This document shows positions 20,339-63,725 of a stretch of 64,000 nucleotides of DNA, in pieces; position 1 is the stretch's first letter; every line of letters begins with the position of its first letter. Below the pieces are notes generated by a model that was not told the origin of the DNA, did no database searches, and saw only the letters and a program-made list of their open reading frames with translations. The stretch lies in contig NZ_CP088247.1 of assembly GCF_021117295.1 (NCBI RefSeq), positions 792,501 through 856,500 on the forward strand, read 5' to 3'. The stretch comes from Methylorubrum sp. B1-46. Its GTDB lineage: Bacteria > Pseudomonadota > Alphaproteobacteria > Rhizobiales > Beijerinckiaceae. The position numbers and the translations under genes were made by a program.

Positions 20339-20482
20339 GGAATCGCTCGGCCTCGCCTCGGCCGGTCTCGTTGGCTCGGACACGCTTTCGCCGCGAGGGC
20401 AGGCCAGAGACCGATGCGTGCGAACTGCCGCGGCGCCCTGCCGCCGCGCAGCGGATCGCTGGGGCGTGCGAGCACCGACACC

Positions 20483-21727
20483 ATGAGCACCGAGATCACC
20501 AATCCGGGCAGCGCCCCGCTGACCACCGCCGATCGCTCGACCGCTGTCGCGGAATCGCTCAAGCGCTTCGCCCGCATCGCGCGGCAGTCGGACCACAAGA
20601 AGGGCATTCGCGCCTACCAGACGCATATCCGGCGCGATCCCTGGATCCCCGCCCTCTTCCTGGCCCTGTTCCTGCTGCCGACGCTCGTCACCGCCGGCTA
20701 CTTCTATCTCATCGCCTCGGACCGCTTCGTCACCGAGGCGCGCTTCGCTCTGCGGCCGGCGCTCGGCAACGTCGACAAGGTGCAGAACGAAGAGACCGGC
20801 AACAACAGCTCGATGTCCAAGCAGATGGTCGCTCAGGACACGCTCATCACGACGAGCTACATCGCCAGTCGGCAGATGGTCGAGGCCATGGAGCGGCAGA
20901 TGCCGCTGCGGGAAATGTTCTCGCGCGACGGCATCGACTACTTCTCGCGCTTCGATGCAGACGAGCCGATCGAGAAGTTCATGCGCTACTGGCATAAGCG
21001 CGTGTCGACCAAGGTCGAATCCAATGGTGGCATCATCACCCTGTATGTCGCCGCCTTCGACCCGGAGGAATCCTACCGGCTCGCCCGCGCCCTGATGGAC
21101 GAGAGCGAGCGCACGGTGAACGAACTCAGCGTGAGGGCCCGCAATGCCGCCCTGGCCGAGAGCACGCGCGAACTCAAGAATGCCGAGGCGCGCCTGCACG
21201 CCGTGCAGCGCGCCATGCGTGACCTGCGCAACCGCGCCGGTGTGCTGGATGCGCAGGCGGTCAGCAAAAACAATCTCACGGTCATCGCGGAGCTACGCAA
21301 GAAGCGCATCGATCTCTCGATTCAGCTCAACCAGAGCCTGCGCGATCTCGCGCCCGAGCGGCGCCAGATCCAGGACCTGAAGGCGCAGATCCAGGACCTC
21401 GACGACAACATCGAGAAGATCGAACGGCAGATGACCAGCACCGATCCGGAGCAGCGGCGCCTGCTGTCGGAGGCGATGACGGAGTTCGAGGGGCTGGAGA
21501 ACGAGCGCAAGAATGCGCTGCTCTATTACAACAAGGTGCTCGCCGCGAGCGAGCAGGCGCGCATCATCGCCAACCGCCAGATCGAGTTCTTCACGCCGGT
21601 GGTGAACCCGGTGGTCCCGGTCTCGGCGATCGAGCCGCGCCGGCACCTCATCACCAGCATCGTCGCGCTGGTGGCGATGGCGGTGTTCGGCCTCAGCGTT
21701 TTGATCCGGAAATATCTCTACAGCTGA
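20483..21727 (+). CDS. kpsE: Capsule polysaccharide export inner-membrane protein (KpsE/CtrB-like)
   Basis: The 414-aa product from ATG 20483 has two transmembrane helices, one at about 60-80 (WIPALFLALFLLPTLVTAGY) and one at the C-terminus (LITSIVALVAMAVFGLSVL). A large periplasmic part lies between them, with a long coiled coil (ELKNAEARLHAVQRAMRDL, then LKAQIQDLDDNIEKIERQM). This layout and FVTEARFALRP near the first helix match the KpsE/CtrB/VexD family, which bridges the ABC transporter and the outer-membrane export channel. A longer start at 20414 is possible. It follows kpsT by about 140 bp. No kpsM, kpsD or synthesis genes are nearby. Confidence 0.87.
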   Translation: MSTEITNPGSAPLTTADRSTAVAESLKRFARIARQSDHKKGIRAYQTHIRRDPWIPALFLALFLLPTLVTAGYFYLIASDRFVTEARFALRPALGNVDKVQNEETGNNSSMSKQMVAQDTLITTSYIASRQMVEAMERQMPLREMFSRDGIDYFSRFDADEPIEKFMRYWHKRVSTKVESNGGIITLYVAAFDPEESYRLARALMDESERTVNELSVRARNAALAESTRELKNAEARLHAVQRAMRDLRNRAGVLDAQAVSKNNLTVIAELRKKRIDLSIQLNQSLRDLAPERRQIQDLKAQIQDLDDNIEKIERQMTSTDPEQRRLLSEAMTEFEGLENERKNALLYYNKVLAASEQARIIANRQIEFFTPVVNPVVPVSAIEPRRHLITSIVALVAMAVFGLSVLIRKYLYS

Positions 21728-21739
21728 TCGCCCCGCTTC

Positions 21740-21820
21740 AGAGTGCCTCACAAAACTCCCGCTCACTGACCGTTCTCACTCTGGCGAGGACAGCGCGGCG
21801 GGAGTTTTGTGAGAGACACT
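21740..21820 (+). repeat. 81-bp palindromic repeat, copy 1
   Basis: This copy starts AGAGTGCCTCACAAAACTCC and ends GGAGTTTTGTGAGAGACACT, so the ends form an inverted repeat of about 20 bp around a variable centre. It lies between the converging kpsE and the stress-protein gene. Its last base is the first base of the stop codon of the minus-strand gene. Copies 2 and 3 are at 22575 and 35087, in the same orientation. Confidence 0.9.
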
Positions 21821-22524
21821 CAGGCGATCTCGCTCGGCGGACGCCGGGTCGGGTGCGGCGCCGTGGGATCGGCCGGCGTGGCCCGCTCCGGCATCAGGGC
21901 CGGCTCGGGCTCCGGTGCGGGCGTTCCGGTCGCGGCGGGCGCCCCCGCGGTGCCGCCGGTCCATCCTTGCGCCCGCCAGCCCTCGGCGCGCTCATCGAGA
22001 TCGATGGCCCCGCCGCGCTGCATCAGTGCGATGACACGGTCGGCAATCTCGCCATCCGCTCGCACGGTGACCAAAGTCCCGCCACGGCGGATCCCTTCGG
22101 CGTAGGTCTCGGCATCGGCCCCGCTCAGGCCCGCGCCGGTCAGGGCACCGATCAGCCCGCCCGCGGCCGCTCCGACACCGGCCCCCGACAGGGTCGCGAC
22201 GAGCCATCCCGCCGCGATTACCGGACCGGCTCCGGGAATCGCGAGGAGGCCGAGGCTCGCAAGCAGCCCGGTGCCGCCGCCGAGCACGGTGCCGACGGTG
22301 GCACCCGCGCCCGCCCCTTCCGCCGCCGAACTCTCGTGCCCGCCGGATACGGCCGTCGGCTCACCAGTCGACGGGGTCGATACCGCGCCCGCCGTCCGAT
22401 CGGCGGCGTTTAGGGACACGATGCCGATATCCGTCTGCGGCACGCCCGCCGCCTCGATGCGGTCGATGACGCGGGCGGCGTCTTCCTGGCTGTCGAACAG
22501 GGCGGTGACGGCGCGTGCGGCCAT
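21820..22524 (-). CDS. YflT/general stress protein 17M-like domain protein with glycine-rich hydrophobic core
   Basis: The 234-aa product starts MAARAVTALFDSQEDAARVI, then IDRIEAAGVPQTDIGIVSLN. This matches the small alpha/beta domain found in YflT/Gsp17M-type stress proteins. A Ser/Ala/Gly-rich stretch and a long glycine-zipper-like hydrophobic segment follow (about residues 75-145, including LLASLGLLAIPGAGPVIAAG). A second short alpha/beta unit with YAEGIRRGGTLVTVRADGE completes the protein before a Pro/Ala tail. The glycine-rich part may insert in or lie on membranes. In relatives such proteins are induced by general stress. The gene ends exactly at repeat copy 1 and begins near repeat copy 2. 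Confidence 0.7.
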   Translation of the reverse strand: MAARAVTALFDSQEDAARVIDRIEAAGVPQTDIGIVSLNAADRTAGAVSTPSTGEPTAVSGGHESSAAEGAGAGATVGTVLGGGTGLLASLGLLAIPGAGPVIAAGWLVATLSGAGVGAAAGGLIGALTGAGLSGADAETYAEGIRRGGTLVTVRADGEIADRVIALMQRGGAIDLDERAEGWRAQGWTGGTAGAPAATGTPAPEPEPALMPERATPADPTAPHPTRRPPSEIA

Positions 22525-22574
22525 GATCGTTCCTCTCGTTTGTCTCTAGCGTCGGCCGTTGCAACCGGCGCTTT

Positions 22575-22654
22575 AGAGTGCCTCACAAAACTCCCGATCA
22601 CCGTCCGTTCTCGCTCTGTAGACGACTGAGCAGCGGGGGTTTTGTGAGAGACAC
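22575..22654 (+). repeat. 80-bp palindromic repeat, copy 2
   Basis: It starts AGAGTGCCTCACAAAACTCC and ends GGGTTTTGTGAGAGACAC, directly before the TAG stop (22655-22657, minus strand) of the next gene. The right arm has a GGGGG variant and the centre differs most. It sits between two minus-strand genes, so it may end transcription of the PepSY-like gene. Confidence 0.9.
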
Positions 22655-22963
22655 CTACTCAGCGGCGACTTCGCCGCGATAATCCATGCCGACGCTCAGC
22701 GTGCGACCGGCATGCTGGGCCCGCCCGCGCCAGATGCCCTGACCGTCGAGATGCAGGTCGGCGACTTCGGGAAATCCCATCTCGGCAAGTCGGGCCCGCA
22801 CCTGCGCGGCGGTGAAGCTGTTGGCACCGGGCTCGAGCCGCTGGCCCACCGCTCCGTGCGCCCGCTCCGCCGGGGCGAGCGCCGGAGAAACGGGCTCCGA
22901 TGCCGCCAGGGCCGAGCCCGGCACCGCGAGGGCGAGGAAGAGAAGCGGAAGGGCGCGCATCAT
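22655..22963 (-). CDS. Small secreted PepSY-like protein
   Basis: The 102-aa product has a signal peptide (LPLLFLALAVPGSALAA). A single small domain follows: SFTAAQVRARLAEMGFPEV is a helix leading into DLHLDGQGIWRGRAQHAGR and a final strand (LSVGMDYRGEV). This is the helix plus beta-hairpin layout of PepSY domains, which are thought to inhibit or bind periplasmic proteases or to sense the envelope. The protein should be in the periplasm. The gene is transcribed away from flhA, and the region upstream is shared with the flhA promoter. Its stop touches the palindromic repeat copy 2. Confidence 0.65.
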   Translation of the reverse strand: MMRALPLLFLALAVPGSALAASEPVSPALAPAERAHGAVGQRLEPGANSFTAAQVRARLAEMGFPEVADLHLDGQGIWRGRAQHAGRTLSVGMDYRGEVAAE

Positions 22964-23064
22964 CAGGACGGGTCACCGGGCTCGTCGGCGGGGTCCGGAG
23001 CCGAGCGCCGGACCGATTGCCTGACCAAACCCCGTGGCCGATCGAGGTTCCGCGCGCTCCGGCG

Positions 23065-23080
23065 TTAACGCCTCGCTAAC
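23065..23080 (+). promoter_or_regulatory. CtrA-type binding box upstream of flhA
   Basis: The sequence TTAA, seven bases, CTAAC lies 75-90 bp before flhA. The known CtrA consensus is TTAA-N7-TTAA(C), so there is one mismatch. Flagellar class II genes are classic CtrA targets in Caulobacter and relatives, and ctrA itself is in this window. Confidence 0.5.
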
Positions 23081-23154
23081 CCTGAACCCGGCAAATCCTG
23101 CCGGGTGCGGTCGCGCGGGTGGGCCGCGCGATTCGTCTTCGGGGATTCGGCGCG

Positions 23155-25299
23155 ATGAGCGAAGCGGCCAAGGCCGTTCCAGCGGGAGCAGGCGGGCTCG
23201 GCGGCTTCGCGGCGCTGCGTATGCCGGACCGGTCGAGCCTGCAGGCTCTGTCGAAGCGCTCGGACCTGTTCTTCGCCACCGCGGTGATGGGCATCCTCGT
23301 GGTGCTGATCTTCCCGCTGCCGGCGTTCCTGCTCGACCTGCTGCTCGCCGTCTCGATCATCCTCTCCGTGCTGATCATGATGACGGGGCTGTTCATCGAC
23401 AACCCGCTCGAATTCACGGTCTTCCCGACGCTCCTCTTGGTCGCGACGCTGCTGCGGCTGGCGCTCAACCTCGCCTCGACCCGGCTGATCCTCGGCCATG
23501 GCCACGAGGGCACGGCGGCGGCCGGCCACGTCATCGAGGCCTTCGGGCACTTCGTGATGGGCGGCAACTTCGTGATCGGGATCATCGTCTTCGCGATCCT
23601 GATCATCGTGAACTTCGTCGTCATCACCAAGGGCTCGGGCCGCATCGCCGAAGTGGCGGCCCGCTTCACCCTCGACGCCATGCCCGGCAAGCAGATGGCC
23701 ATCGACGCCGACCTCTCGGCCGGGCTCATCGACGAGAAGGTGGCCAAGGCCCGGCGCTCGGCGTTGGAGGAGGAATCCTCGTTCTTCGGCGCCATGGACG
23801 GCGCCTCGAAATTCGTGCGCGGCGACGCGGTGGCCGCGCTCCTCATCACCTTCATCAACGTGGTCGGCGGCATCATCATCGGCGTCGCCCAACAGGGGCT
23901 CGGCTTCGCCGAGGCCGCCAAGACCTACACCCTGCTCACCATCGGCGACGGGTTGGCCTCTCAGGTCCCGGCCCTGATCGTCTCGACGGCCGCCGGCATC
24001 CTCGTCTCGAAGGCCGGTGTGAAGGGCTCGGCCGACAAGGCCCTCGGCAAGCAGATGGCGAACTACCCCAAGGCCCTCGGCATGTCGGCCGGCGTCATGT
24101 TCCTGATCGCCCTCCTGCCCGGCATGCCGATGTTGCCCTTCCTCGCGCTCGGCGGTGCCTCCGGCTACGCCGCGTGGCGCATCGCCAAGACGCAGCGCGA
24201 GAACCCGCCCACGCCGGCCGAGGGCACGCCCGGCGCCGCTGCCGCCGCCGGCGCGGTGCCTGCGGAGGAGACCGTCACCGACCTGCTCAAGCTCGACGAC
24301 CTCAAGCTGGAGATGGGCTACGCGTTGCTGGCCCTCGTCAACGGCGAGGGCCAGGACCGGCTCACGGACCAGATCAAGGCCCTGCGCCGGCAGCTCGCCT
24401 CGGAGCTCGGCATCGTGATGCCCTCGGTGCGCATCCTCGACAACGTGAGCCTCGAAGCCAACACCTACGTGGTGCGAGTGAAGGAAATCGAGGCAGGCAC
24501 CGGCCAAGTCTTCCCCGGCCAGTTCATGGCGATGGACCCGATGGGCGGGCAGGTGCAGCTTCCCGGCCAGCACCTCTTGGAGCCGACCTTCGGCCTGCCG
24601 GCGACCTGGGTCGATGCGGGCCTGCGGGATCAGGCCCAGCTCAAGGGCTACACCGTGGTCGATGCGGCCACCGTGATCTCGACCCACCTGACCGAACTGA
24701 TCAAGGCTCACGTCTCGGAACTGCTCAACCACGTCGAGGTGCAGAAGCTCCTGCGCGAACTGCCCAAGGAGCACACCGAACTCCTCAAGGAAGTGGTGCC
24801 CGCGCAGATCGCCACCACCGGCATCCAGCGGGTGCTGCAATTGCTGTTGGCGGAACGAGTCTCGGTGCGCGACCTCGGCTCCATCGTCGAGGGCATCGCC
24901 GAGGTCGCGGGCCACCTGAAGAATCCGCGCGACATCGTCGAGCATGTCCGCGCCCGCCTCGGCCGGCAGATCTGCGCACAGTACCAGGGACCGGACGGAA
25001 CGCTGCCGATCATCACCCTGTCGCCGGCCTGGGAGCAGGCCTTCCTCGAATCGATCGTCGGCGAGCGCGAGGAACGCTACCTCGCGATGCAACCCTCGAA
25101 GCTCACCGAATTCGTCAACACGGTGCGCGACCGCTTCGAGCAGGCGGCGCGGATGGGCGAGATGCCGGTACTCGTCACCTCGGTCCAGGCCCGACCGTTC
25201 GTTCGCTCGATCATTGAGCGATTCCGCCGCGAGACCCCGGTGATGAGCCAGGCGGAGATTCATTCCCGCGCCCGCTTGCGGACGGTCGGCTCCGTGTGA
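23155..25299 (+). CDS. flhA: Flagellar export apparatus membrane protein FlhA
   Basis: The 714-aa product is a full-length FlhA, the export-gate subunit that binds late flagellar substrates and their chaperones. The N-terminal half holds about eight membrane helices, beginning LFFATAVMGILVVLIFPLPA. The family signature is present in order: RLALNLASTRLIL, GNFVIGIIVFAILI and FTLDAMPGKQMAIDADLSAG. The cytoplasmic domain contains VRDLGSIVEGIAEVAGHLKN. The ATG at 23155 is selected since the product then starts as in relatives and the CtrA-type box lies just upstream. The gene stands apart from the fliI-fliJ pair 2.6 kb away. A strong hairpin follows at 25372. Confidence 0.96.
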   Translation: MSEAAKAVPAGAGGLGGFAALRMPDRSSLQALSKRSDLFFATAVMGILVVLIFPLPAFLLDLLLAVSIILSVLIMMTGLFIDNPLEFTVFPTLLLVATLLRLALNLASTRLILGHGHEGTAAAGHVIEAFGHFVMGGNFVIGIIVFAILIIVNFVVITKGSGRIAEVAARFTLDAMPGKQMAIDADLSAGLIDEKVAKARRSALEEESSFFGAMDGASKFVRGDAVAALLITFINVVGGIIIGVAQQGLGFAEAAKTYTLLTIGDGLASQVPALIVSTAAGILVSKAGVKGSADKALGKQMANYPKALGMSAGVMFLIALLPGMPMLPFLALGGASGYAAWRIAKTQRENPPTPAEGTPGAAAAAGAVPAEETVTDLLKLDDLKLEMGYALLALVNGEGQDRLTDQIKALRRQLASELGIVMPSVRILDNVSLEANTYVVRVKEIEAGTGQVFPGQFMAMDPMGGQVQLPGQHLLEPTFGLPATWVDAGLRDQAQLKGYTVVDAATVISTHLTELIKAHVSELLNHVEVQKLLRELPKEHTELLKEVVPAQIATTGIQRVLQLLLAERVSVRDLGSIVEGIAEVAGHLKNPRDIVEHVRARLGRQICAQYQGPDGTLPIITLSPAWEQAFLESIVGEREERYLAMQPSKLTEFVNTVRDRFEQAARMGEMPVLVTSVQARPFVRSIIERFRRETPVMSQAEIHSRARLRTVGSV

Positions 25300-25371
25300 C
25301 GGCGTGAGGTCGGACTGAACGCCGGCTCCAAATCGGGAGATGACGAAAGCCGTCTCGAGGTGGTGCCGCAT

Positions 25372-25422
25372 GCAAAAGAGCCGAGCCCACCCTTCAGCAA
25401 AGGGCGGGCTCGGCTCTTTTGC
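25372..25422. terminator. Strong bidirectional hairpin terminator after flhA
   Basis: Arms GCAAAAGAGCCGAGCCC and GGGCTCGGCTCTTTTGC pair perfectly around a short centre. An A-run precedes the stem and a T-run ends it, so it can stop transcription from both flhA (plus strand) and the small minus-strand gene at 25501. Confidence 0.85.
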
Positions 25423-25500
25423 GTTGATTTGTTCTCGGAGAGCGGGATCGAGCATCCTGCCTTCGAACGCAGCGAAGGTTCGCCTTCGCTCAACGGCAGG

Positions 25501-25641
25501 TCAAGCGTGCCCCTCGATAGCACGCAGAACGGCAACCATCTCGTCGGCCTGCGAACGCGTGAGCCCGCGGCTGATGATCGTGCCGTTGCGGCAGATCGAG
25601 CAGGTGCCGTCCTCGGCAACCCGTATCTTGATCGAGGCCAT
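25501..25641 (-). CDS. Small hypothetical protein (46 aa)
   Basis: The product reads MASIKIRVAEDGTCSICRNG followed by TIISRGLTRSQADEMVAVL and a short tail. It has a beta strand, a CxxC pair and a C-terminal helix, a compact layout that could bind metal or be a regulatory microprotein. The ATG at 25641 is chosen over 25650 because GGATGG lies a few bases upstream. It lies between two terminator-like hairpins (25372 and 25812), so it has its own transcription unit. The family is not recognised, but composition and codon use along its length look coding. Confidence 0.55.
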   Translation of the reverse strand: MASIKIRVAEDGTCSICRNGTIISRGLTRSQADEMVAVLRAIEGHA

Positions 25642-25811
25642 GATATCCATCCGGGGGCAAGACGCCCCCAATCCGGCGAAGCTTAACCGTTCCTGAAAGG
25701 GCGGCAAGCCCGCGTGTCCCGCTCATCCACTGAGGCGGCGTGACGTAGGGATTCGCCCTTCGTACGTCACTGCGACAAAGTGCGCATGGAAGTCGGACCT
25801 ATGAAACGCGA

Positions 25812-25841
25812 ACGGCGACCGCCCCGAAAGGCGATCGCCGT
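25812..25841 (-). terminator. Hairpin downstream of the YbhN-like gene
   Basis: ACGGCGACCGCC and GGCGATCGCCGT form an imperfect stem around CCGAAA, 24 bp past the stop of the minus-strand gene that ends at 25865. No clear T-run follows, so it may be a weak or Rho-assisted terminator. Confidence 0.45.
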
Positions 25842-25864
25842 CCACATCTGTCGAGAAGGGTCGA

Positions 25865-26917
25865 TCAGACCGCCTTCTTCTCCAGCCGCTCCTCGATGAC
25901 GTGGTTGTCGAGGCCCGGCGCCACCAGCGGCGGCTCCGGTGGCGTCTTGGCATCCTTGCCGAGCGCGTTCGAGAGGCGCGAGCGCTCGAACAAAAGCACC
26001 ACGACGATCGCCACGGCAAAGGGGATGAGCAGGTAGAAAAGGCGGAAGATCAGCACCGCGGCCAGCACCGGGGCCTTCTCGGCATCGGTCTGGAGCTGCA
26101 TGGCGGTGAAGAACACGAGTTCGAACACACCGAGGCCGCCCGGCGCATGCGAGGCCAGAGCGACCGAGAACGAGGCGAGGAAGATGCCGAGCACCGCGAT
26201 GAAGCCGGGATTCAGGGCATCCGGCAGGGCGAAGTAGATGATGCCGGCGGCACCGAGCAGCTCGAGCGGCGCCGCGATGAGCTGGCGCACCATGATGCCG
26301 GGGCGGGGATACTCGACCTTGAAGTTGCGGATCGTCAGCGGTCGGAAGCGCAGCACCGAACCGATGACGTAGAGCGCGACGAAGGCGAGCAGACCGAAGC
26401 CGACGAGCCGGGAGGTCGCGGGGTTGGTGAGCGCGGCGGGCAGAAGGTTGTCGAGCCGGGACAGCAGGCCCGGATCGTAGACCAGCACGAAGCCACCGAG
26501 CAGGATCGTGCCGAGACCGAAGGTGAAGGAGCAGAGCGCCACCAGCACGGCGACCTGCGCCGCCGAAAGCCCCTTCGAGGTGTAGGCCCGGTAACGAACC
26601 AGGGCGCCGGAGAAGACCGAGGCGCCGATATTGTGGGACAGCGCGTAGGTCGTGAACGAGCACACCGAAACGAACAGCCACGAGATGTGGCGTACGCCCA
26701 GATGCAGCAGCGCGATCCGGTCGTACCAAGCGAGCGCGGCGTAGGCGACGAGCGTGGAGATGGCCGCAAGCAGGAAGTGGTGGAGCGGGATGGCGGCGAA
26801 GGCTGCCTCGATGCTCGCCCAGGATAGGGTCTTCAACTCACCCCAGAGCAGGTAGCAGGATACCGCCACCGCGGCGAGGCCGACCAGGCCCCAGACGATT
26901 TCACTGACTTTTTTCAT
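25865..26917 (-). CDS. YbhN/lysylphosphatidylglycerol synthase-type transmembrane protein
   Basis: The 350-aa product has about eight transmembrane helices, including VWGLVGLAAVAVSCYLLW and VAVLVALCSFTFGLGTILLG. It also has motifs of the UPF0104/AglD-MprF flippase domain: HNIGASVFSGALVRYRAY near residue 100 and SHAPGGLGVFELVFF near residue 258. It has only the membrane domain and lacks the MprF catalytic domain, so it is more likely a lipid-handling or flippase-like protein than a synthase. Its ATG is followed by MKKVSEIVWG. It is a single gene with an imperfect hairpin downstream. No linked lipid genes help define the substrate. Confidence 0.82.
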   Translation of the reverse strand: MKKVSEIVWGLVGLAAVAVSCYLLWGELKTLSWASIEAAFAAIPLHHFLLAAISTLVAYAALAWYDRIALLHLGVRHISWLFVSVCSFTTYALSHNIGASVFSGALVRYRAYTSKGLSAAQVAVLVALCSFTFGLGTILLGGFVLVYDPGLLSRLDNLLPAALTNPATSRLVGFGLLAFVALYVIGSVLRFRPLTIRNFKVEYPRPGIMVRQLIAAPLELLGAAGIIYFALPDALNPGFIAVLGIFLASFSVALASHAPGGLGVFELVFFTAMQLQTDAEKAPVLAAVLIFRLFYLLIPFAVAIVVVLLFERSRLSNALGKDAKTPPEPPLVAPGLDNHVIEERLEKKAV

Positions 26918-27154
26918 GGATGCCGGCCGCCTCTCTCGGGAGCGGTCTCTCCTGCGCTACGACCGCGCGCGCCGCAAGCGGAACCGGAGCCACCGTCTCG
27001 ATGGGACCGGGTCTTGCCGGCCGATCATGACGGTTTCATGCCGAAGAAAGCGGGCGGATGCGGATTCCGTGCGGCCGGCAGGGGCGAGGCGCACGCTGCT
27101 CATTTTCGCATCGTCTTCTTCCGAAAGCCGATGAGCAGCCTTCGAGACGATGCG

Positions 27155-27691
27155 CTAGCGCGGCCGCGTGACCTGATCGATGTAGGCGGCATCGGATCGG
27201 CTCGGCTCGGGAACACTCACACGGTCCCGGTTGCTGCCGGGCCGGCCTTTGATCGAGCCGGGAATGGGGCCCGCGGCATCGATGAGACTTTCGTCGGTAA
27301 TCAGGCCCGGCCGCAGTGCGCCGCTCCGCGGCCCCGGTGCCAAGCGCTGTCCCTCGTAGAGATTGATGCAGTCGCGAAGGGCGATCGGATCCCGGATGAA
27401 GGTGCAGTCATTCACGTTCGGAACGGGTGCCGCGCCGTTGGGAGTGATGAGGTTCTGCGCAACCACGACACGCGAACCAGGCGATGCGCCGAACACATCG
27501 ACCCGATAGCCCATTCCGTCCGGCGTGATCACGTTCCGGGTCGCTGCCGTTGGTGACGCGTCACCCGCAGCGGACACGATCGCCTGAGAGCCGCTGCCAT
27601 CCAGAGCGATCACGTTCTGCGCCGACGCAGCCGTGGGCGCGAGGCCGGCGACGAGTGCCACGAGCAAGATCTTGGTTCCGGACTGCAGCAT
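27155..27691 (-). CDS. Secreted hypothetical protein
   Basis: The 178-aa product starts with a signal peptide (KILLVALVAGLAPTAASAQ). The mature part contains three similar short motifs: QNVIALDGSGSQ, RNVITPDGMGY and QNLITPNGAAP. These spaced (R/Q)N(V/L)I-x-x-(D/N)G units suggest a small repeat. A disulfide candidate is formed by NDCTFIRDP and LRDCINLYEGQ. The C-terminal part is Pro/Gly/Arg-rich and probably disordered. A short AGG lies near the start as a ribosome-binding site. Probably periplasmic; function unknown. Confidence 0.6.
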   Translation of the reverse strand: MLQSGTKILLVALVAGLAPTAASAQNVIALDGSGSQAIVSAAGDASPTAATRNVITPDGMGYRVDVFGASPGSRVVVAQNLITPNGAAPVPNVNDCTFIRDPIALRDCINLYEGQRLAPGPRSGALRPGLITDESLIDAAGPIPGSIKGRPGSNRDRVSVPEPSRSDAAYIDQVTRPR

Positions 27692-27910
27692 CTCGCACCT
27701 ATGAAGAAGCGGAGCGCGCGAGATCGCGGCCCAATGCCAGCTACATAGGTTAGAACTTTACTTCCGCTTCCCGGTTCCCCATGCCTCGACACCGTCAGGA
27801 GTCGGCCGGCATGCCGACTCACTCCCAGGGGCGTCCGCGGGGTTGCGAACAGGTGCCGCGGCGGCGGCGTCATGGGCCGCCGACGCTGTCACCGAACCGG
27901 CCGGCGACGG

Positions 27911-28315
27911 TCAGGCCCGCGCCCGCAGTCCGATCGCGTCCATCTCCGCTTGCTCGCGGGCGGCCTCGGCCGCGCGCTCGGCGGAGCGCTCACGATCCTC
28001 CAGAATCTCGACCTTCTTCAATTCCTCGAACGCCTCGCCGAGCTCGGCCTTGGCCTCGGCGAGCTGACCCTCCAGGGCGGCGGCCGACTGGCGCATGTTG
28101 TCCCGGCGGCCTGTCGCGGCGCGGGCATAGGTCGGGTAGGCGAAATGGGCCGGGTCGGAGATGCCGGCGCGGGCCTCCTCCTGGGCGACCTCGCGGTCGA
28201 GCTCGGCCGCCATGCGGTTGAAGTCGGCCATCATCATCTCGATCTGGGCGACCCGGCGGCGCTTCTCGTCCACCTGGAACCGACGCAGCCGGATCAGCGT
28301 GTCACGCGATTTCAT
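27911..28315 (-). CDS. fliJ: Flagellar export protein FliJ
   Basis: The 134-aa product begins MKSRDTLIRLRRFQVDEKRR, the usual start for alphaproteobacterial FliJ. It is one long antiparallel coiled coil (EMMMADFNRMAAELDREVAQE, shown in part, and later AAREQAEMDAIGLRARA). FliJ forms the stalk inside the FliI ATPase ring and connects to FlhA, which is also encoded in this window. The ATG at 28315 is chosen because the longer upstream frame is not protein-like. It lies 92 bp downstream of fliI, so the two are probably one transcript. Confidence 0.85.
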   Translation of the reverse strand: MKSRDTLIRLRRFQVDEKRRRVAQIEMMMADFNRMAAELDREVAQEEARAGISDPAHFAYPTYARAATGRRDNMRQSAAALEGQLAEAKAELGEAFEELKKVEILEDRERSAERAAEAAREQAEMDAIGLRARA

Positions 28316-28407
28316 GTCGGGCCATCCACTCCACGCTACGCTGGAAAGCGGCCCGATCGGTGACGTGGTCCTTCCGGACCACGACCCGACGCGCTTTCGA
28401 AGCCGCC

Positions 28408-29763
28408 TCACCCGCCGCCGACGATGGCGGCCAACCGAGCGTAACCCTCGCCGATGGAGGTTGCTTCTTCCTTACCCTGCCCCAGAAAAGCCGTCAGATC
28501 CGGCATGAGGGCCACCGCCTCGTCCACCTCCGGCGACGACCCGGCCCGGTAGGCGCCGAGCCGGATCAGCTCCTCCATGTCGGCATAGGTCGCGAGCACC
28601 TTTCGCGCCCGGCGGACGGTGGGAAGATGCGCGGGGTCGCAGGCCCGCGGCATGGTACGCGAGACCGAGCGCAGCACGTTGATCGCCGGATAGCGCCCCT
28701 GCTCGGCAACGCGTCGCTCCATGACGATATGGCCGTCGAGGATGCCGCGCACCGCGTCCGCCACCGGCTCGTTATGGTCGTCGCCCTCGACGAGCACGGT
28801 GAACAGGCCGGAGATCGCCCCCTCCCCCACCCCTGGCCCCGCCCGTTCGAGCAGGCGCGGCAATTCGGAAAAGACGGTCGGCGTGTAGCCCTTGGCGGTG
28901 GGCGGCTCGCCGCCGGCCAAGCCGATATCGCGCTGGGCCATGGCGAAGCGCGTGATCGAGTCGATCATGCACAGGACCTGCGCGCCCTGATCGCGGAAAT
29001 ATTCGGCGATGGCGAGCGTCACGTAAGCCGCGTTGCGGCGCATCAGCACCGGCTCGTCAGAGGTCGCCACCACCACGACGGAGCGCGCGAGCCCCGCCGC
29101 GCCGAGATCGTCCTGCAGGAATTCCTGCACCTCGCGTCCGCGCTCGCCGACGAGGCCGATCACCGCCACGTCGGCGGCGGTGTAGCGCGCGAGCATCGAC
29201 AACAGCACCGACTTGCCGACGCCGGAACCGGCGAAGATGCCCATGCGCTGCCCGCGGCACATGGTGAGAAAGGTGTTGATGCAGCGCACGCCGAGATCGA
29301 GCGGCGGCCCGACCCGCCTCCGGCCGTGCGCGGGGGGAGGATCGGCTCGCAGGGAATAGATCGCGGGCCCCTGCGCCAGCGGCCCGAGACCGTCGATGGG
29401 CCGCCCGAGGGCATCGACCGTGCGTCCGAGCCACGCGTTCGAAGGACGGATCGCGCCCGCCGCCTCGTCGCGCACCAGGGCCGGACAGCCGCGGCGCACC
29501 CCTTCCAGGGAGCCGAAGGGCATGGCGAGCGCGCGGTCTCCGGCAAAGCCGATCACCTCGCACGGCACGGTCGCCGCCGAGGCTCCGCCACTCTCCACCA
29601 CCACGTCGATGCGGCCGCCGAGCCGCATGGCGGAGACCGGCCCGGCCACCTCGACCAGGAGGCCGCGGATCGCCGTCACTCGGCCGAAGGTTTCCAGAGT
29701 CTCGACGGTCGAGAGCGCGGCGAGCGCCGCCGCCAGCCCCCCGGAGCCGCGCTCCTGCGTCAT
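28408..29763 (-). CDS. fliI: Flagellum-specific ATPase FliI
   Basis: The 451-aa product is a full-length FliI, the ATPase of the flagellar export machine. The Walker A motif [11 protein letters not shown] lies near residue 180. [15 protein letters not shown] follows and [20 protein letters not shown] carries the Walker B Asp and the arginine region. The C-terminal helical domain includes [13 protein letters not shown]. All key residues are intact. The gene is divergent from ctrA, with 437 bp of shared upstream sequence that contains TTAAC half-sites at 29778 and 29812; these could serve CtrA control. fliJ follows on the same strand. Confidence 0.96.
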
Positions 29764-30023
29764 TTGCCCTGACCTCGTTAACCGCTGTCCGCCACCGATC
29801 CGGCCGATGTCTTAACACCGCCGGGTCGCTCGCCAAGGTTCTCCGCCACTGTTCCAGAGGCCGGATCGCCGATCACGGAAAATGGAAAGGCGACGAAACG
29901 CCTCCGTCTCCTTTCGGCAACAGGATCGTCAACCCTTGGGAAAAGAAGGGGTTAGCCGGGAGCGCTCATGCGCCGCCTCGAGAAAGCCGGTGGGGAGGGA
30001 GAACAGATCGCCAACCCCGACGA

Positions 30024-30069
30024 GAATCGGTCTCGGACTCGAAAGAGACAGTGCTTGCAAGCGGGATTC
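30024..30069. promoter_or_regulatory. Cluster of three GANTC (CcrM) methylation sites before ctrA
   Basis: GAATC at 30024-30028, GACTC at 30036-30040 and GATTC at 30065-30069 fall within 46 bp. GANTC is the target of the cell-cycle methylase CcrM. In Caulobacter a GANTC site in a ctrA promoter makes transcription depend on DNA methylation state, so a similar replication-linked switch is plausible here. Confidence 0.55.
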
Positions 30070-30077
30070 GGCTTTTG

Positions 30078-30088
30078 TTAACGGTTAA
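30078..30088 (+). promoter_or_regulatory. TTAACGGTTAA element in the ctrA promoter
   Basis: Two TTAA half-sites are separated by 3 bp, not the 7 bp of a full CtrA box, and overlap the proposed -10 region. It may be a CtrA autoregulatory half-site pair. Confidence 0.4.
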
Positions 30089-30200
30089 GGAATAGCGTTT
30101 CGAAAGTGGGAATGAGGGAGCGTCCGCCGGGGCCGTCGGCGGACGACCGGCGGCAGCTTGTCTCAAGCGCCCCGAAACGGCCTGTCCGGTGGGGATCACG

Positions 30201-30902
30201 ATGCGCGTACTTCTGATCGAGGACGACAGCGCGACGGCGCAGAGCATCGAGTTGATGCTGAAGTCCGAGAACTTCAACACCTACACGACCGACCTCGGCG
30301 AAGAGGGCGTCGATCTCGGAAAACTCTACGATTACGACATCATCCTTCTGGATCTGAACCTGCCTGACATGTCGGGCTACGAGGTGCTGCGCTCCTTGCG
30401 CGTCGCCAAGGTGAAGACCCCGATCCTGATCCTGTCGGGCATGGCCGGCATCGAGGACAAGGTGAAGGGCCTCGGCTTCGGCGCCGACGACTACCTCACC
30501 AAGCCGTTCCACAAGGACGAGCTGGTGGCCCGCATCCATGCCATCGTGCGCCGCTCGAAGGGTCATGCCCAGTCGGTCATCACCACCGGCGACCTGATCG
30601 TGAACCTCGACCAGAAGACCGTCGAGGTCTCCGGCTCGCGGGTGCACCTCACCGGCAAGGAGTACCAGATGCTGGAACTCCTCTCGCTCCGGAAGGGCAC
30701 GACGCTCACCAAGGAGATGTTCCTGAACCATCTCTACGGCGGCATGGACGAGCCGGAACTGAAGATCATCGACGTGTTCATCTGCAAGCTGCGCAAGAAG
30801 CTCGCCAATGCCTCCGAGGGCAAGAACTACATCGAGACCGTTTGGGGCCGCGGCTACGTGCTGCGCGAGCCGATGGAAGGCGAGGACCGCATGGCGGTCT
30901 GA
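30201..30902 (+). CDS. ctrA: Cell-cycle response regulator CtrA
   Basis: The 233-aa product starts [20 protein letters not shown] as in CtrA of other alphaproteobacteria. The receiver domain has Asp8-Asp9, phosphorylation site Asp51 ([18 protein letters not shown]) and the conserved Lys in [12 protein letters not shown]. The C-terminal OmpR-type winged helix contains [19 protein letters not shown] and [17 protein letters not shown]. CtrA controls replication start, division and flagellar genes. The ATG at 30201 follows a GGGG stretch; the extra upstream Met codon is unlikely. The protein ends in Ala-Val, whereas Caulobacter CtrA ends in two alanines that serve ClpXP degradation. A clear hairpin terminator follows. 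Confidence 0.97.
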
Positions 30903-30925
30903 TCCGCCCGACCTCGAACGCGTGC

Positions 30926-30955
30926 GAACCCCGCTCCGGCGGGGTTCTTTCGTTT
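30926..30955 (+). terminator. Rho-independent terminator of ctrA
   Basis: GAACCCCG and CGGGGTTC form a perfect 8-bp stem around CTCCGG, followed by TTTCGTTT. It lies 24 bp after the ctrA stop and touches the 3' end of the convergent gene at 30955. Confidence 0.85.
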
Positions 30956-31491
30956 CAAGGTCCGACGATCCGCGGAGCGAGCGTTTCGACGAGGATCCGT
31001 GCGTTGCGGGAGGCCGTAGCGGCGTCGCCGGCCAGGGAGCGGATCGTCAGGAGATCGCCGTCGCGCAGGACGATCGCGGTCGCGCCCGCCATCGCTCCCG
31101 TGCGGTAGAGGCTGATCCATCCGACCGCCGGAGCCACCGACAGGCCGGTAAGCCGGCATTCCGGATTGCGCTGCCGGCAGAGCGCCTCCAGGCGGGCGAC
31201 CGGCGTCTGCCCCGAGCGGACGCGCTCCTCCGTGCCGTCAGTCTGCCGCCCGAGCAGCACGTCGATCATCGGAGCCCCCTCGCATTCGCTGCAAAGGAGT
31301 GTCAGCCGAGCCGCCTCGGCGCGCGTTGCGTAACGGCCTCCCAGCACCGCCTTCGCTTCGGCGGCAACCGAGGTGAGGTCGCGGACGGCAAAACCCTCGG
31401 CCATGACCGGGAACGGAAGCAGGCCGATCAGGACGGCCAAGCCGAATCGCTGCTTCCTGCAGCGTCCGTCACGTCCCGCCGGCATCGACAC
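30955..31491 (-). CDS. Secreted hypothetical protein
   Basis: The 178-aa product has a basic N-region and a signal sequence (LAVLIGLLPFPVMAEG). The mature part has cysteine pairs (TLLCSECEG; ALCRQRNPECRLTG) that suggest disulfides. The final section alternates strands (VGWISLYRTGAMAGATAIVL) and a helix (ASRNARILVETLAPR). It lies 8 bp downstream of the DUF3297 gene, so the two are likely one transcript. The start could be the GTG at 31491 or the ATG two codons later. It is convergent with ctrA and shares its terminator region. Function unknown. Confidence 0.6.
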   Translation of the reverse strand: MSMPAGRDGRCRKQRFGLAVLIGLLPFPVMAEGFAVRDLTSVAAEAKAVLGGRYATRAEAARLTLLCSECEGAPMIDVLLGRQTDGTEERVRSGQTPVARLEALCRQRNPECRLTGLSVAPAVGWISLYRTGAMAGATAIVLRDGDLLTIRSLAGDAATASRNARILVETLAPRIVGP

Positions 31492-31498
31492 CGTCGAA

Positions 31499-31750
31499 TC
31501 AGGCCTCGCCCGGCTCCTCGCGGAAATACGGCTCGACCGGACCCTTGAGCTTCACCGTCATCGGGTTTCCGGCCCGGTCGAGGGCCTTGCCGGCCGACAG
31601 CCGCACCCAGCCCTCGCTGACGCAGTATTCCTCGACATTGGTCTTCTCGACGCCCTTGAAGCGAATGCCGACGCCGCGGGCGAGGACCGCCTCGTCGTAA
31701 TAGGGGCTGTTCGGGTTCACCGAGAGGCGGTCGGGGAGCGTATCGGACAT
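31499..31750 (-). CDS. DUF3297 family protein
   Basis: The 83-aa product starts MSDTLPDRLSVNPNSPYYDE, continues with GVGIRFKGVEKTNVEEYCVS and EGWVRLSAGKALDRAGNPMT, and ends near VEPYF. This is the complete pattern of the small DUF3297 family found in many proteobacteria. The protein is soluble, beta-rich and cytoplasmic. Its function is not known. It lies 43 bp after the acetyltransferase gene on the same strand and 8 bp before the secreted-protein gene, so all three may be co-transcribed. Confidence 0.88.
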   Translation of the reverse strand: MSDTLPDRLSVNPNSPYYDEAVLARGVGIRFKGVEKTNVEEYCVSEGWVRLSAGKALDRAGNPMTVKLKGPVEPYFREEPGEA

Positions 31751-31792
31751 GAGTCGTGGCTTCCTGGAAATCGAGCCGGCCGGTTACGGCAA

Positions 31793-32422
31793 TCAGGGCG
31801 GTCCCGCAACGGCGCGCTCGGACCTGACCGCCGCGATCAGTTCCTCCACCCGGCCGCTCTGCAGGAGCGGAATCCAGCGCATCACCGTCGCATGCGGAAA
31901 ATCCCACCACGCGGTCTCGACCAGCGCGGCGCTCGTCGCCTCGTCGAAGCGGCGCCGCACGATCCGAGCCGGGTTGCCGGCGACGACGGCGTAGGGCGGA
32001 ACATCGCGCGTGACGACGGCGTGGGCGGCCACCACGGCGCCGTGGCCGACGGTGATCCCCGACAAGATCATGCAGCCCGAGCCGAGCCAGACGTCGTGCC
32101 CGATGGTCACGTCGCCGCGCGAGGCGTGGTAATCCTCAGGCGCCTCGGCCCCCGGCCACAGCCCGGACATCGCCGCGAACGGATAGGTCGAGACCCAATC
32201 CAGACGGTGATCGCCGCCGAGCAGGATCTCGACCCGATCCGCGATGGAACAATACCGGCCGATCGTCAGCCGCCGCCCGGATTCGGGGAAGCGCACCTTG
32301 GGCCTGCCGTAAGAGTATGCGCCGATTGTGAAATTCCAGCGCCGGGCCAGCTTTTCGAGGTGGAGCCGGGTCTCGTTGTGCGGGTTGCGCCCCCGCTTCA
32401 GCCGTTGCAACAGATGCCTCAA
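31793..32422 (-). CDS. Hexapeptide-repeat O-acetyltransferase (CatB/XAT-like)
   Basis: The 209-aa product is a left-handed beta-helix transferase. Hexapeptide turns are seen around [30 protein letters not shown] and [20 protein letters not shown]. The C-terminal [20 protein letters not shown] is the standard end of the family. The [11 protein letters not shown] segment with its His is the loop that holds the catalytic His of xenobiotic and polysaccharide acetyltransferases. It may modify a surface sugar or a small molecule using acetyl-CoA. The start is taken as a TTG with AGGGGG just upstream, as no ATG or GTG fits. It is divergent from the malic enzyme gene, with 63 bp between starts. Confidence 0.83.
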
Positions 32423-32485
32423 CAGCGCCCCCTGGAAGACGAGGGTGCGGGCGCGCAAGAACGAGCGGAAGAGGACGGCATCGCC

Positions 32486-34819
32486 ATGGCCGACAATATG
32501 TCCGAGGATCTGAAGTCCGGGGCGCTCGTCTACCATCGACTGCCGAAACCCGGAAAGCTCGAGATCCAGGCGACCAAACCGCTCGGCAACCAGCGCGACC
32601 TCGCGCTGGCCTACTCCCCCGGCGTCGCCGCCGCCTGCATGGCGATCCACGACGACCCGCAGGAAGCCGCCACCCTCACCATCCGCCAGAACCTCGTCGC
32701 GGTGCTCTCGAACGGGACCGCGGTGCTCGGCCTCGGCGATATCGGCCCGCTCGCCTCGAAGCCGGTGATGGAGGGCAAGGCGGTCCTGTTCAAGAAGTTC
32801 GCCGGGATCGACGTCTTCGACATTGAGGTCGATCAGAAGGACGTCGACAAACTCGTCGACGTCGTCTGCTCCCTGGAGCCGACCTTCGGCGGCATCAACC
32901 TCGAAGACATCAAGGCGCCCGAGTGCTTCGAGGTCGAGGAGCGTTGCCGGGAGCGGATGAACATTCCGGTCTTCCACGACGACCAGCACGGCACGGCGAT
33001 CATCGTCGCGGCGGCTGTCCTCAACGCGCTGGAACTCGCCGGCAAGCAGCTTTCCGACGCCAAGATCGTCACCTCCGGCGCGGGCGCGGCGGCGCTGGCC
33101 TGCCTCAACCTCCTGGTCTCCCTCGGCGCGGCCCGCGAGAACATCACCGTCACCGACATCAAGGGCGTGGTCTACAAGGGCCGCGCCGAACTGATGGACC
33201 GCTGGAAGGACGTCTACGCCCAAGACACCGAGGCGCGGACGCTGGCCGAGGTGATTCCCGGCGCCGACGTGTTCATCGGCCTCTCGGCGGGCGGCGTGCT
33301 GAAGCCCGAATATCTCGAGAAAATGGCCGAGAAGCCGCTCATCATGGCGCTCGCCAACCCCTACCCGGAGATCATGCCGGATCTCGCCGAGCAGGCGCGA
33401 CCGGACGCGATGATCTGCACCGGGCGCTCGGACTTCCCCAATCAGGTCAACAACGTCCTCTGCTTCCCCTACATCTTCCGCGGTGCGCTGGACGTCGGCG
33501 CCCACAAGATCAACGAGGAGATGAAGAAGGCTGCGGTGAAGGCGATCGCGGCGCTGGCCCGCGAGGCGCCCTCCGATGTGGTGGCGCGTGCCTATGGCGG
33601 CGAGGCCCGCCCGTTCGGGCCGCGCTCGCTGATCCCGAGCCCGTTCGATCCGCGCCTGATCCTGCGCATCGCGCCTGCCGTTGCCAAGGCGGCGATGGAT
33701 TCCGGCGTCGCCGGGCGTCCGGTCGAGGACATCCAAGCCTACACCGAATCGCTCGACCGCTTCGTGCACCGCTCCGGCTTCATCATGAAGCCGCTCTTCT
33801 CGAAGGCGAAGGCCGCCCCGAAACGCGTCATCTACGCCGAGGGCGAGGACGAGCGAGTGCTGCGGGCGGCCCAAGCCGTCGTCGAGGACCAGGTGGCACG
33901 ACCGATCCTGGTTGGGCGCCCGCGGGTGATCGAGACCCGCATCAAGCGTTTCGGCCTCGACCTCAGGCACGGCGAGCATTTCGACCTGATCGATCCCGAG
34001 GACGATCCGCGCTACCGCGATTACGTCGCCACCTATCTCGAAGTGGCCGGGCGGCGCGGCATCACGCCCGATCTCGCCCGGACGCTGGTGCGCACCAACA
34101 ACACGGTGATCGCGGCCCTGGCGGTCCGCCGTGGCGAGGCGGATGCGCTGATCTGCGGCCTGGAAGGCCGGTTCGAGACGCGCCTGCGGGTAATCCGCGA
34201 CGTGATCGGGCTCTCGCCCGATTCCATCGACTTCGCCGCGATGAGCCTCATCGTCACGAAGAAGGGCGCCTACTTCTTGGCCGACACCCATGTCCGGCAG
34301 AACCCGAGCGCGGAGGAGATCGCCGACGTGGCCATCGCCTGCGCGAACCATGTCGGCCGCTTCGGCCTGACCCCGAAGATCGCGCTGCTGAGCCACTCCG
34401 ATTTCGGTCAGTCGGATTCGGAATCGTCGATGAAGATGCGTCGCGCGCTCGGACTGATCCGGAGCCGCGCGCCCGAGCTTCAGGCCGATGGCGAGATGCA
34501 GGCGGATTCGGCGCTGTCCGAGCTCATCCGCGACCGCGTGCTGCCGAGTTCGAATTGGAAGGGTGCAGCCAACATCCTCGTTTTCCCGAACCTGGATGCC
34601 GCCAACATCGCCTTCCAGTTCGCCAAGGTGCTCGCCGACGCGCTTCCGGTCGGTCCCCTGCTGATCGGCCCGGCCAAGCCCGCGCACATCCTCACGCCTT
34701 CGGTCACGGCCCGCGGCATCGTCAACGTCACCGCGGCGGCGGTCGTGGAGGCGCAGGCCGGAGAATCGGACGCGGCTGCAGCCGAAGCCGAGCCCGGCAC
34801 CGGACCGCTCTCGGAATAG
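32486..34819 (+). CDS. maeB: NADP-type malic enzyme with phosphotransacetylase-like domain (MaeB)
   Basis: The 777-aa product has an N-terminal malic enzyme part: [40 protein letters not shown], then FHDDQHGTA for metal binding and a Rossmann segment around [15 protein letters not shown]. From about residue 435 a phosphate acetyltransferase-like domain follows ([18 protein letters not shown] onward). This fusion is the standard MaeB form; the second domain is usually regulatory and responds to acetyl-CoA. The enzyme turns malate into pyruvate with NADP reduction. The ATG at 32486 is used; upstream frame, although open for over 1 kb, is antisense to the acetyltransferase gene. The GTG/ATG-rich start region also offers MSEDLK four codons later. 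Confidence 0.95.
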
Positions 34820-34970
34820 CCTGATCCGCTCTCCGTTTGATCCGAGCGGGAGCGTACCGCTCAGCCCGCGCGAGGCTTGCGCGACGGCCAAATCCGTCCT
34901 CCCGAGGGGGATCAACCGGATTTGGTCTGAGGCTGAGACCACAACGCGAAACCCTTCGGCCGTCGCGCTG

Positions 34971-35052
34971 CCGGATTGCTTCGCTGATGCTCGCAATGAC
35001 GGTTTGGGTCTTCCTCGCCGTCATTGCGAGGCGGAGCCGCAGCAATCCAGGC
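34971..35052. repeat. Alphaproteobacterial REP-type inverted repeat
   Basis: GGATTGCTTCGCT...GCTCGCAATGACGG is followed by CCGTCATTGCGAGGCGGAGC and CAGCAATCCAG, giving a large imperfect hairpin. The CGTCATTGCGAG / AGCAATCCAG words are a familiar intergenic repeat in Hyphomicrobiales. It lies 150 bp after maeB in a 346-bp gene-free stretch that also holds palindromic repeat copy 3; a smaller inverted repeat (CCAAATCC / GGATTTGG) lies near 34889-34925. Confidence 0.75.
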
Positions 35053-35086
35053 CGCGACATCACGGAATCGCTTTGCACGGAGGCTA

Positions 35087-35167
35087 AGAGTGCCTCACAA
35101 AACTCCCGGTCACCGACCGTTTTCGCTCCGGCGACGACAGCGCGGCGGGAGTTTTGCGAGAGACACT
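35087..35167 (+). repeat. 81-bp palindromic repeat, copy 3
   Basis: It starts AGAGTGCCTCACAAAACTCC and ends GGAGTTTTGCGAGAGACACT, overlapping the TAG stop (35166-35168) of the next minus-strand gene. The centre is closest to that of copy 1 (both contain GACGACAGCGCGGC or GAGGACAGCGCGGC). Confidence 0.9.
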
Positions 35168-35345
35168 AAAGCGCCCGGATCTTCTCCTCGATCCGCTTGG
35201 CCTCGGCCTCGTCGACCCGCACCGGCTGCCCGCTATCGTCGGGGATGCCCTCGCCGGTCTGGCCGATGGTGGTGTCGCGCGGCCGGGCGTTGGGGCCGGT
35301 CGAGTCGGGGCGCTCCTCGCGCGGTTGATGGTCATCGATGCTCAT
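35166..35345 (-). CDS. Small hydrophilic hypothetical protein (59 aa)
   Basis: The product starts MSIDDHQPREERPDSTGPNA and ends with a charged helix (EAEAKRIEEKIRAL). It is acidic, rich in Asp, Arg and Pro and probably disordered except for the last 18 residues. A good ribosome-binding site (AGGGA) lies 8-9 bp before the ATG at 35345. Its TAG stop is formed where the gene meets the palindromic repeat. It is transcribed in the same direction as the glycosyltransferase operon, 70 bp after its last gene. No family is recognised. Confidence 0.6.
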   Translation of the reverse strand: MSIDDHQPREERPDSTGPNARPRDTTIGQTGEGIPDDSGQPVRVDEAEAKRIEEKIRAL

Positions 35346-63486: not shown

Positions 63487-63662
63487 TTACCTGAGAGCTT
63501 CCCTCACTCCGCAGAGCGAGGTTTCTCCTTCGGTGGACGCCGGTCGGCGCCTCTCTCCAGATTGTCCAACGATACGGTGATTGTGCCTGAGAGTTTCCGG
63601 GGGTCGTTGCTCCGTCGGCGCCATAACCCCTCTTTACGAGCGGTCTGGGCTCTCCCGTATCG
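63487..63662 (-). promoter_or_regulatory. Tandem glycine riboswitch upstream of gcvT
   Basis: Read on the minus strand, two gcvT-type aptamers follow each other. Aptamer 1 (63662-63571) has GGAGAGCCC, GGCGCCGACGGAGCAA and GGAAACTCTCAGGCA, closed by GATACGG / CCGTATC. Aptamer 2 (63558-63487) has GGAGAGAGGCGCCGACC, CACCGAAGGAGAAA and GGAAGCTCTCAGGTA. These are the conserved core words of the glycine riboswitch. About 65 bp separates it from the gcvT start. It probably turns on the gcv genes when glycine is high. Confidence 0.93.
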
Positions 63663-63725
63663 TCTGTATCGGACGGCTGGAGGCTCGCACGGTGCGAACC
63701 GCGCGGCAACCCGCCGGCGTGACGA

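Follow-up and report, generated by a model that had tools for sequence, protein, structure and literature searches.

A 79-bp miniature inverted-repeat transposable element of Methylobacterium and Methylorubrum that is often found against stop codons

Introduction

Why should three copies of a short palindrome, all in one orientation, each lie directly against the stop codon of a minus-strand gene? The question is raised by a stretch of 64,000 nucleotides from Methylorubrum sp. B1-46 (contig NZ_CP088247.1, positions 792,501 to 856,500; hereafter the window), in which a preliminary description had noted three 81-bp palindromes so placed and had proposed either insertion at gene ends or a role as a terminator or stabiliser of mRNA 3′ ends. 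We find that the repeat is a new family of miniature inverted-repeat transposable elements (MITEs). The explanation that we favor, with a probability of roughly 0.8, is that this 79-bp element is a non-autonomous MITE that inserts between 3-bp copies of a TNA target (CTNAG in its wider context), is likely moved in trans by a transposase of the type found in IS1031 insertion sequences (ISs), and spares the stop codons on which it lands.

Results

A dispersed family of 79-bp elements with conserved ends

The three near-palindromes were found where they had been described, all on the plus strand and each touching a minus-strand stop codon, but the exact repeated unit is 79 bp (consensus GAGTGCCTCACAAAACTCCCGGTCACCGACCGTTCTCGCTCTGGCGANGACAGCGCAGCGGGAGTTTTGTGAGAGACAC). 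The two ends of the unit are GAGTGCCTCACAAAAC and GTGTCTCTCACAAAAC, and it carries terminal inverted repeats of the form G[A/T]GT[G/C][C/T]CTCACAAAACTCCCG at both ends. These ends are inverted yet not identical (left GAGTGCC..., right GTGTCTC...), a difference kept in most of the 49 aligned copies, and they are better conserved than the middle of the element. The inner arms (columns 7-21 against 59-73) pair at 15/15, 14/15 and 14/15 positions in copies 1, 2 and 3, respectively.

A covariance model built from 26 of 30 seed loci (L013, L017, L021 and L030 were omitted because of indels or failed end detection) gave 114 hits at E<=0.01 in the 5.5-Mb genome; 26 of these were the opposite strand of another hit, leaving 88 distinct copies. 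A reversed control pattern matched 3 times, compared with 103 matches for the real pattern (both at <=3 mismatches). The repeat thus has the short length, the lack of a transposase gene and the many dispersed copies that characterize MITEs, and no title or abstract opening in the literature searched describes a 79-bp family of this kind, most subscription papers and the IS databases lying outside that search. Two observations concern individual copies: at 1983382-1983541 of this genome (L093) two tandem elements are separated by 3 bp, of which the first is degenerate and the second is intact and touches a stop codon; and a repeat of ∼116 bp at 2029865-2029981 (L095:3866-3982), which lies beside an element copy, has many copies in two relatives (G016 and G061).

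The family is found within the genus. The covariance model hit 21 of 25 genus genomes (this one included; two of the 21 had weak hits alone) and none of 16 genomes from other families. Exact matches to a 16-bp end occurred in 25 of 45 sampled genus genomes and in none of 352 genomes from other genera of the same family (397 searched in all). All nine named Methylobacterium and Methylorubrum genomes carry the element, with 8 to 64 raw hits each at E<=1e-4. A variant family with the left end GTGCACCTCAC and an identical right end, flanked in places by TNA, was seen in other genus genomes (L374, L399, L402, L390, L378 and L403). In the five genomes that had right-end motifs alone among the matches listed (G056, G081, G082, G106 and G109), 6 of 8 loci have this variant left end, and the left ends of the remaining 2 are more diverged. 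One relative (G042, contig G042:C1) holds at least several dozen copies together with many IS5-type ISs of equal score, and may be a genome with recent activity of the element.

Flanking triplets point to duplication of a TNA target

The triplets immediately to the left and right of the element are equal in 29 of 88 copies, where 10.6 were expected and at most 24 were obtained in 10,000 shuffles; at each of three shifted offsets, equality was found in a single copy (1/88). TNA stands on the left of 60 and on the right of 56 of the 88 copies. Among the 41 copies with TNA on both sides the center base agrees in 28 (12 expected; 0 of 20,000 shuffles reached this value). The bases next to TNA favor C before and G after, giving a CTNAG context. 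With G as its first base and C as its last, the element restores the CTNAG pentamer at both junctions. Read in the orientation of the element, the target center is biased (A or C in 23, T or G in 5; p=0.0009). When copies were ranked by falling similarity to their nearest copy and divided into groups of 22, equal triplets numbered 12, 9, 7 and 1, the pattern expected of duplications that decay with time.

These duplications bear on whether the repeat is instead a repetitive extragenic palindrome (REP) or REPIN, moved by a RAYT tyrosine transposase. REPs are likewise short palindromes of high copy number in convergent and tandem intergenic regions, and REP ends that supply stop codons are reported in the available part of PMC3733652. 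A 3-bp target duplication, consensus ends without a GTAG or CGTC tag, and a single 79-bp hairpin with two different conserved ends all speak against such an origin, which we regard as very improbable.

Relatives contain empty sites in which the stop codon is in place

TNA includes the stop codons TGA and TAA on either strand, so that duplication of the target keeps a stop codon whole. At the site of copy 1, all seven relatives compared lacked the element and had the TCA stop of the adjoining minus-strand gene in place. Among the nine named relatives, which may overlap with these seven, the element was present at this site only in M. aminovorans, with TCA on both sides, and was not found there in the other eight. 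The site of copy 2 was read without the element in 6 of 6 relatives, with a stop (TCA or CTA) at the same place. For copy 3, three relatives give a long alignment over the right flank, and in each of them the gene stops at the corresponding codon (TCA). Two further sites, at 2030007 and 2037426 of this genome, were read without the element in 7 of 7 relatives, again with a stop triplet at the junction. The site at 2037426 provides a clean empty/filled pair, CTTTC-TTA in one relative (G009) and CTTTC-TTA-element-TTA in this genome.

The preliminary description had the repeat supplying part of the stop codon in copies 1 and 3. This holds for copy 3, where the final C of the element is the first base of the CTA; in copy 1 the TCA lies wholly outside the element and is the duplicated target, and the stop codon at copy 2 is also outside. 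The proposal of insertion at gene ends, by comparison, is supported by the target duplications, the empty sites and the placement of copies genome-wide.

Placement at stop codons is a preference, not a rule

Genes were called by a codon-usage script trained on the window, in place of a curated annotation. With these calls, 40 of the 88 copies abut a stop codon, 46 are intergenic and away from stops, and 2 overlap a called gene, so that the contact seen at all three copies in the window extends to fewer than half of the family. Nor is the constant use of the right end general, since contacts were made by the right end in 26 and by the left end in 15 cases (one copy at both; p=0.12).

In the 670 kb sampled around copies, from which expected shares were derived, 66% of YTNAR sites (the target with its flanking bases) are in coding sequence and stop codons make up 15.7% of the remainder, or 20.9% when sites are weighted by pentamer. 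Some contact with stops would therefore be expected by chance alone if TNA, in so AT-poor a genome, seldom occurs elsewhere. However, the share observed was 40 of 86 non-coding copies (p=2e-11 against the plain share and p=9e-8 against the weighted share), and an excess was also found in a second genome (G016), where 8 of 20 copies are at stops against 17% expected (p=0.013), 8 of 20 have equal triplets and 1 of 20 overlaps a called gene; this sample consists of the 20 best of 61 hits, and some of its insertions may have been inherited from an ancestor common to both genomes. Within the limits of script-based gene calls these two results refute chance contact, to which we give practically no weight. 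We conclude that stop placement is due in good part to a target that spells stop codons, and that an excess of about twofold lies beyond it.

Insertions per available YTNAR site were 0.286 at stops (a class of 42 copies here, as two short gene-end overlaps are added), 0.128 at 1-15 nt downstream, 0.080 at 16-50 nt, 0.062 at 51-150 nt and 0.061 at >150 nt, compared with 0.034 in divergent regions and 0.001 inside genes. By gene arrangement, there were 31 insertions per 147 available YTNAR sites in convergent regions, 45 per 478 in tandem regions and 10 per 296 in divergent regions. The stop share did not change with age: in the four groups of 22 copies of increasing divergence, 13, 6, 11 and 10 were at stops.

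One explanation for the excess is that the transposase actively prefers DNA at stop codons, through a target feature beyond YTNAR or through the state of transcription or translation termination there. That the excess exceeds the weighted pentamer model, and is already present in the copies closest to another copy (13 of 22), is consistent with such a preference. However, full-length ISs with the same target footprint have no stop excess (4 of 22 at stops, compared with 40 of 88 for the element; p=0.027), so that the excess belongs with this element rather than with the target they have in common; stems of 8 or more pairs are not commoner downstream of hit stops (3 of 40) than of unhit ones (14 of 158); and fast purifying selection would give an identical picture. 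We therefore consider active preference unlikely. A small hairpin that is harmless, a hairpin that is useful, or a different transposase could each explain the excess.

The hairpin and a possible role at RNA 3′ ends

In five of six strand/copy foldings of the three window copies, the predicted RNA folded better than all 200 shuffles (z from −3.3 to −7.2); the sixth, the minus strand of copy 2, was marginal (z −1.96, with 10 of 200 shuffles folding as well). On both strands the arrangement AAAA-CTCCCG...CGGGAG-TTTT has the layout of a bidirectional terminator. These features, together with a stop share of 40/86 where 21% was expected and the concentration of insertions in convergent regions, would fit a mobile element whose copies at stops are retained because they act as bidirectional terminators or mRNA 3′-end stabilisers.

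We compared base pairing in 49 of 54 copies of exactly 79 bp, omitting five with rearranged or divergent interiors. Three measures were slightly above those of shuffled alignments: paired cells (90.0% vs 89.1%; 6/500), cells changed on both sides (8 vs 5.2; 61/500) and the covariation score (0.090 vs 0.082; 32/500). Against retention, compensatory pairs, with changes on both sides, numbered 3 compared with 3.2 in shuffles. A scan for terminator patterns had no match in copies 1 or 2; in copy 3 it picked up a weak one with a 5-pair stem. The loop between CTCCCG and CGGGAG-TTTT is too long for the scan. Moreover, divergent copies are at stops no more often than similar ones, all 7 relatives compared lack copy 1, and relatives without the element at 2037426 have a hairpin with a short T tail beside the empty site. 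No Rfam family matched the element above its gathering score. The earlier suggestion that the repeats serve as terminators or 3′-end stabilisers thus finds little support, and retention for such a function seems to us improbable as the reason for stop placement; an added role as an RNA 3′-end structure is possible.

A candidate transposase of the IS1031 type

IS5-type ISs are common in these genomes. We examined 30 IS loci as a control, 7 of which yielded no row, and kept 22 of the 25 rows obtained (two looked spurious and one duplicated the same insertion); to be selected, an IS needed TNA on one flank or both and ends starting with GA. Identical TNA triplets, in the same context as that of the element, flank 18 of these 22 full-length ISs, 6 of which had been picked beforehand for identical triplets; among the other 16, the triplets are identical in 12. 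The two ISs that were checked encode IS5-family transposases with DUF4096 and DDE_Tnp_1 domains, in one frame (L209; NF033580, 206.8 bits) or two (L337; 104.1 bits, just under the cut-off of 110, and 131.3 bits). Members of the IS1031 group select TNA and produce exclusively a 3-bp repeat, according to the consulted portion of a 2025 study (PMC12016507). The element shares this trait to the extent described above, with identical triplets in 28 of the 41 copies that have TNA at both ends and in 29 of 88 overall. Given this published rule and the footprint of the IS5-type ISs in the genus, an IS1031-type (IS5-family) transposase acting in trans is the likely mover.

The search for an autonomous parent used PF13340 and PF01609 in 7 genomes, with 60 matching loci scanned for ends, and then end patterns. 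The parent pattern, applied to 111 genus genomes, required a base other than that of the element at position 18 of the end and so would miss a parent reading C there; it gave 25 matches, 21 of which have the opposite end ∼60 bp away, as in the element. Of the other four, one is a decayed 79-bp copy (L266), one is a lone left end beside a gene of no assigned identity (L269), and two, from two relatives, are lone left ends (∼27 bp; L267 and L273) lying directly beside the 3′ end of a gene that resembles a lipase and not a transposase. The latter two, which have no right end within 1.5 kb, are remnants of the element at a gene end.

Some copies sit directly against IS5-type ends (GAGCGCCTAACAGAAC) and share a TNA triplet with them, as at 1304339 in this genome (L091:5340-5418) and in G056 (L399). 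The ends of IS5-type ISs, which would rebuild the target, appear from these junctions to act as targets for the element.

Features in the window

The coordinates of the three copies, their target triplets and the adjoining genes are collected in Table 1. The closest listed match of the 437-aa gene, in M. aminovorans, suggests a Methylorubrum-like host; records of the genome to which the window belongs may have been absent from that listing.

Table 1. The three element copies in the window, their flanking triplets and neighboring genes (positions in the window).
Feature	Position	Strand	Remark
437-aa gene	20414..21727		Closest among the matches listed: M. aminovorans, 96%
Copy 1, left target triplet TCA	21738..21740
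Element copy 1, 79 bp	21741..21819	+	Covariance model 104.7 bits, top match in this genome
Copy 1, right target triplet TCA	21820..21822	-	TGA stop of the 234-aa gene
234-aa gene ending at copy 1	21820..22524	-	YflT domain, 25 bits, under the curated cut-off of 26.2
Copy 2, left triplet TTA	22573..22575		Right side is CTA, 1 mismatch in the duplication
Element copy 2, 79 bp	22576..22654	+
Copy 2, right triplet CTA	22655..22657	-	TAG stop codon
102-aa gene ending at copy 2	22655..22963	-	No Pfam match
Copy 3, left target triplet TAA	35085..35087
Element copy 3, 79 bp	35088..35166	+
CTA at copy 3	35166..35168	-	TAG stop: final C of the element plus TA of the duplicated TAA
59-aa gene ending at copy 3	35166..35345	-	No Pfam match
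Copy 3, right target triplet TAA	35167..35169

Other repeats are present near copy 3. Two inverted stretches at 34960-35060, a few dozen bp from this copy, resemble REPs of the CGTC type (CGTCATTGCGAG...GCAATCC), the REP label following usage in the portion of PMC3733652 consulted. The ∼115 bp at 34818-34933, immediately behind the stop codon that closes the gene at 32414-34819, recur elsewhere in several genus genomes at 77-82% identity and represent another 3′-end repeat family. Farther away, at 63565-63667 on the minus strand, the window contains a glycine riboswitch aptamer (Rfam RF00504, 61.3 bits).

Discussion

The answer we propose is that insertion at TNA would duplicate the triplet, and that the terminal G and C of the element, combined with this duplication, would leave the stop codon standing, as the sequence itself shows at the sites compared. 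Purifying selection would presumably remove copies that land within genes (coding sequence holds 66% of YTNAR sites, yet 2 of 88 copies overlap a called gene), so that copies would accumulate at stop codons and in other 3′ flanks of genes. The preference for stops would then combine TNA targeting with an additional factor, and the long hairpin would be a consequence of the paired terminal inverted repeats.

Several results weigh against this explanation. The flanking triplets are unequal in 59 of 88 copies, and those of copy 2 (TTA/CTA) differ at one position. The left flank of copy 3 could not be aligned in relatives, and hence no empty site was seen there. With the end patterns used, no autonomous IS with the ends of the element was found in 111 genus genomes or in 352 genomes of other genera, and the nearest IS end seen (L225) is alike at 13 of 16 bases; an autonomous IS with matching ends is usual for a bacterial MITE, though not required. 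Lastly, target preference and avoidance of genes leave part of the stop excess (∼2-fold, p=9e-8) unaccounted for, and the full-length ISs lack such an excess.

A bolder view is that the element homes to stop codons, lands there in a translationally silent manner and occupies them at about double the rate expected from its target rule, unlike ISs with the same target. Transposition would then disperse a portable 3′ untranslated region. We offer this view tentatively and, on balance, doubt it; if true, dozens of genes have received a ready-made hairpin right where their reading frames end. The twofold excess makes the choice between silent safe havens and active targeting of 3′ ends directly testable. 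More generally, a target triplet that spells a stop codon, and is copied on insertion so that the gene stays readable, is a simple and checkable reason why certain bacterial repeats seem welded to stop codons. Gene finders and comparative genomics will be confronted with this element across Methylobacterium and Methylorubrum.

The properties of the element can be set beside those of known systems, as these are described in the portions of the cited papers available to us. It resembles the IS1031 group of the IS5 family in its TNA target, 3-bp direct repeat and ends of the GAG/GAA type, and such ISs occur in the same genomes (PMC12016507); it differs in being 79 bp long and gene-free, with ends matching no IS found, and in standing at stop codons more often. 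RUP of Streptococcus pneumoniae, a MITE of IS630-Spn1 with 108 copies of 107 bp, is thought to be moved by a transposase acting in trans, but its target is TA and its parent IS is known (PMC2229807). YPAL, or RU-2, of Yersinia is likewise an intergenic palindrome with target duplications and with empty and filled sites between species; however, it is 168 bp long, with duplications of 3 to 26 bp and targets at or beside dyads (PMC2229807), whereas the element has a fixed 3-bp TNA target, and stems are not overrepresented downstream of the stops that it hits. The ends of GTAG-tagged REPs often give flanking open reading frames a TAG stop, and these REPs share the convergent, 3′-proximal placement (PMC3733652); the element has no tag and does have a target duplication. 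A MITE is also known from the same bacterial group: the 2009 Methylobacterium genome paper describes, in the portion available, one MITE type of ∼400 bp, MiniMdi3 of Methylobacterium extorquens, which, compared by description, differs from the element in length, in its relation to ISMdi3 and in its copy number of 4 and 8 in two genomes (PMC2680597). MITEs, RUP, YPAL and REPs that supply TAG stops are thus already established, and what is new here is a 79-bp family with one unusual property.

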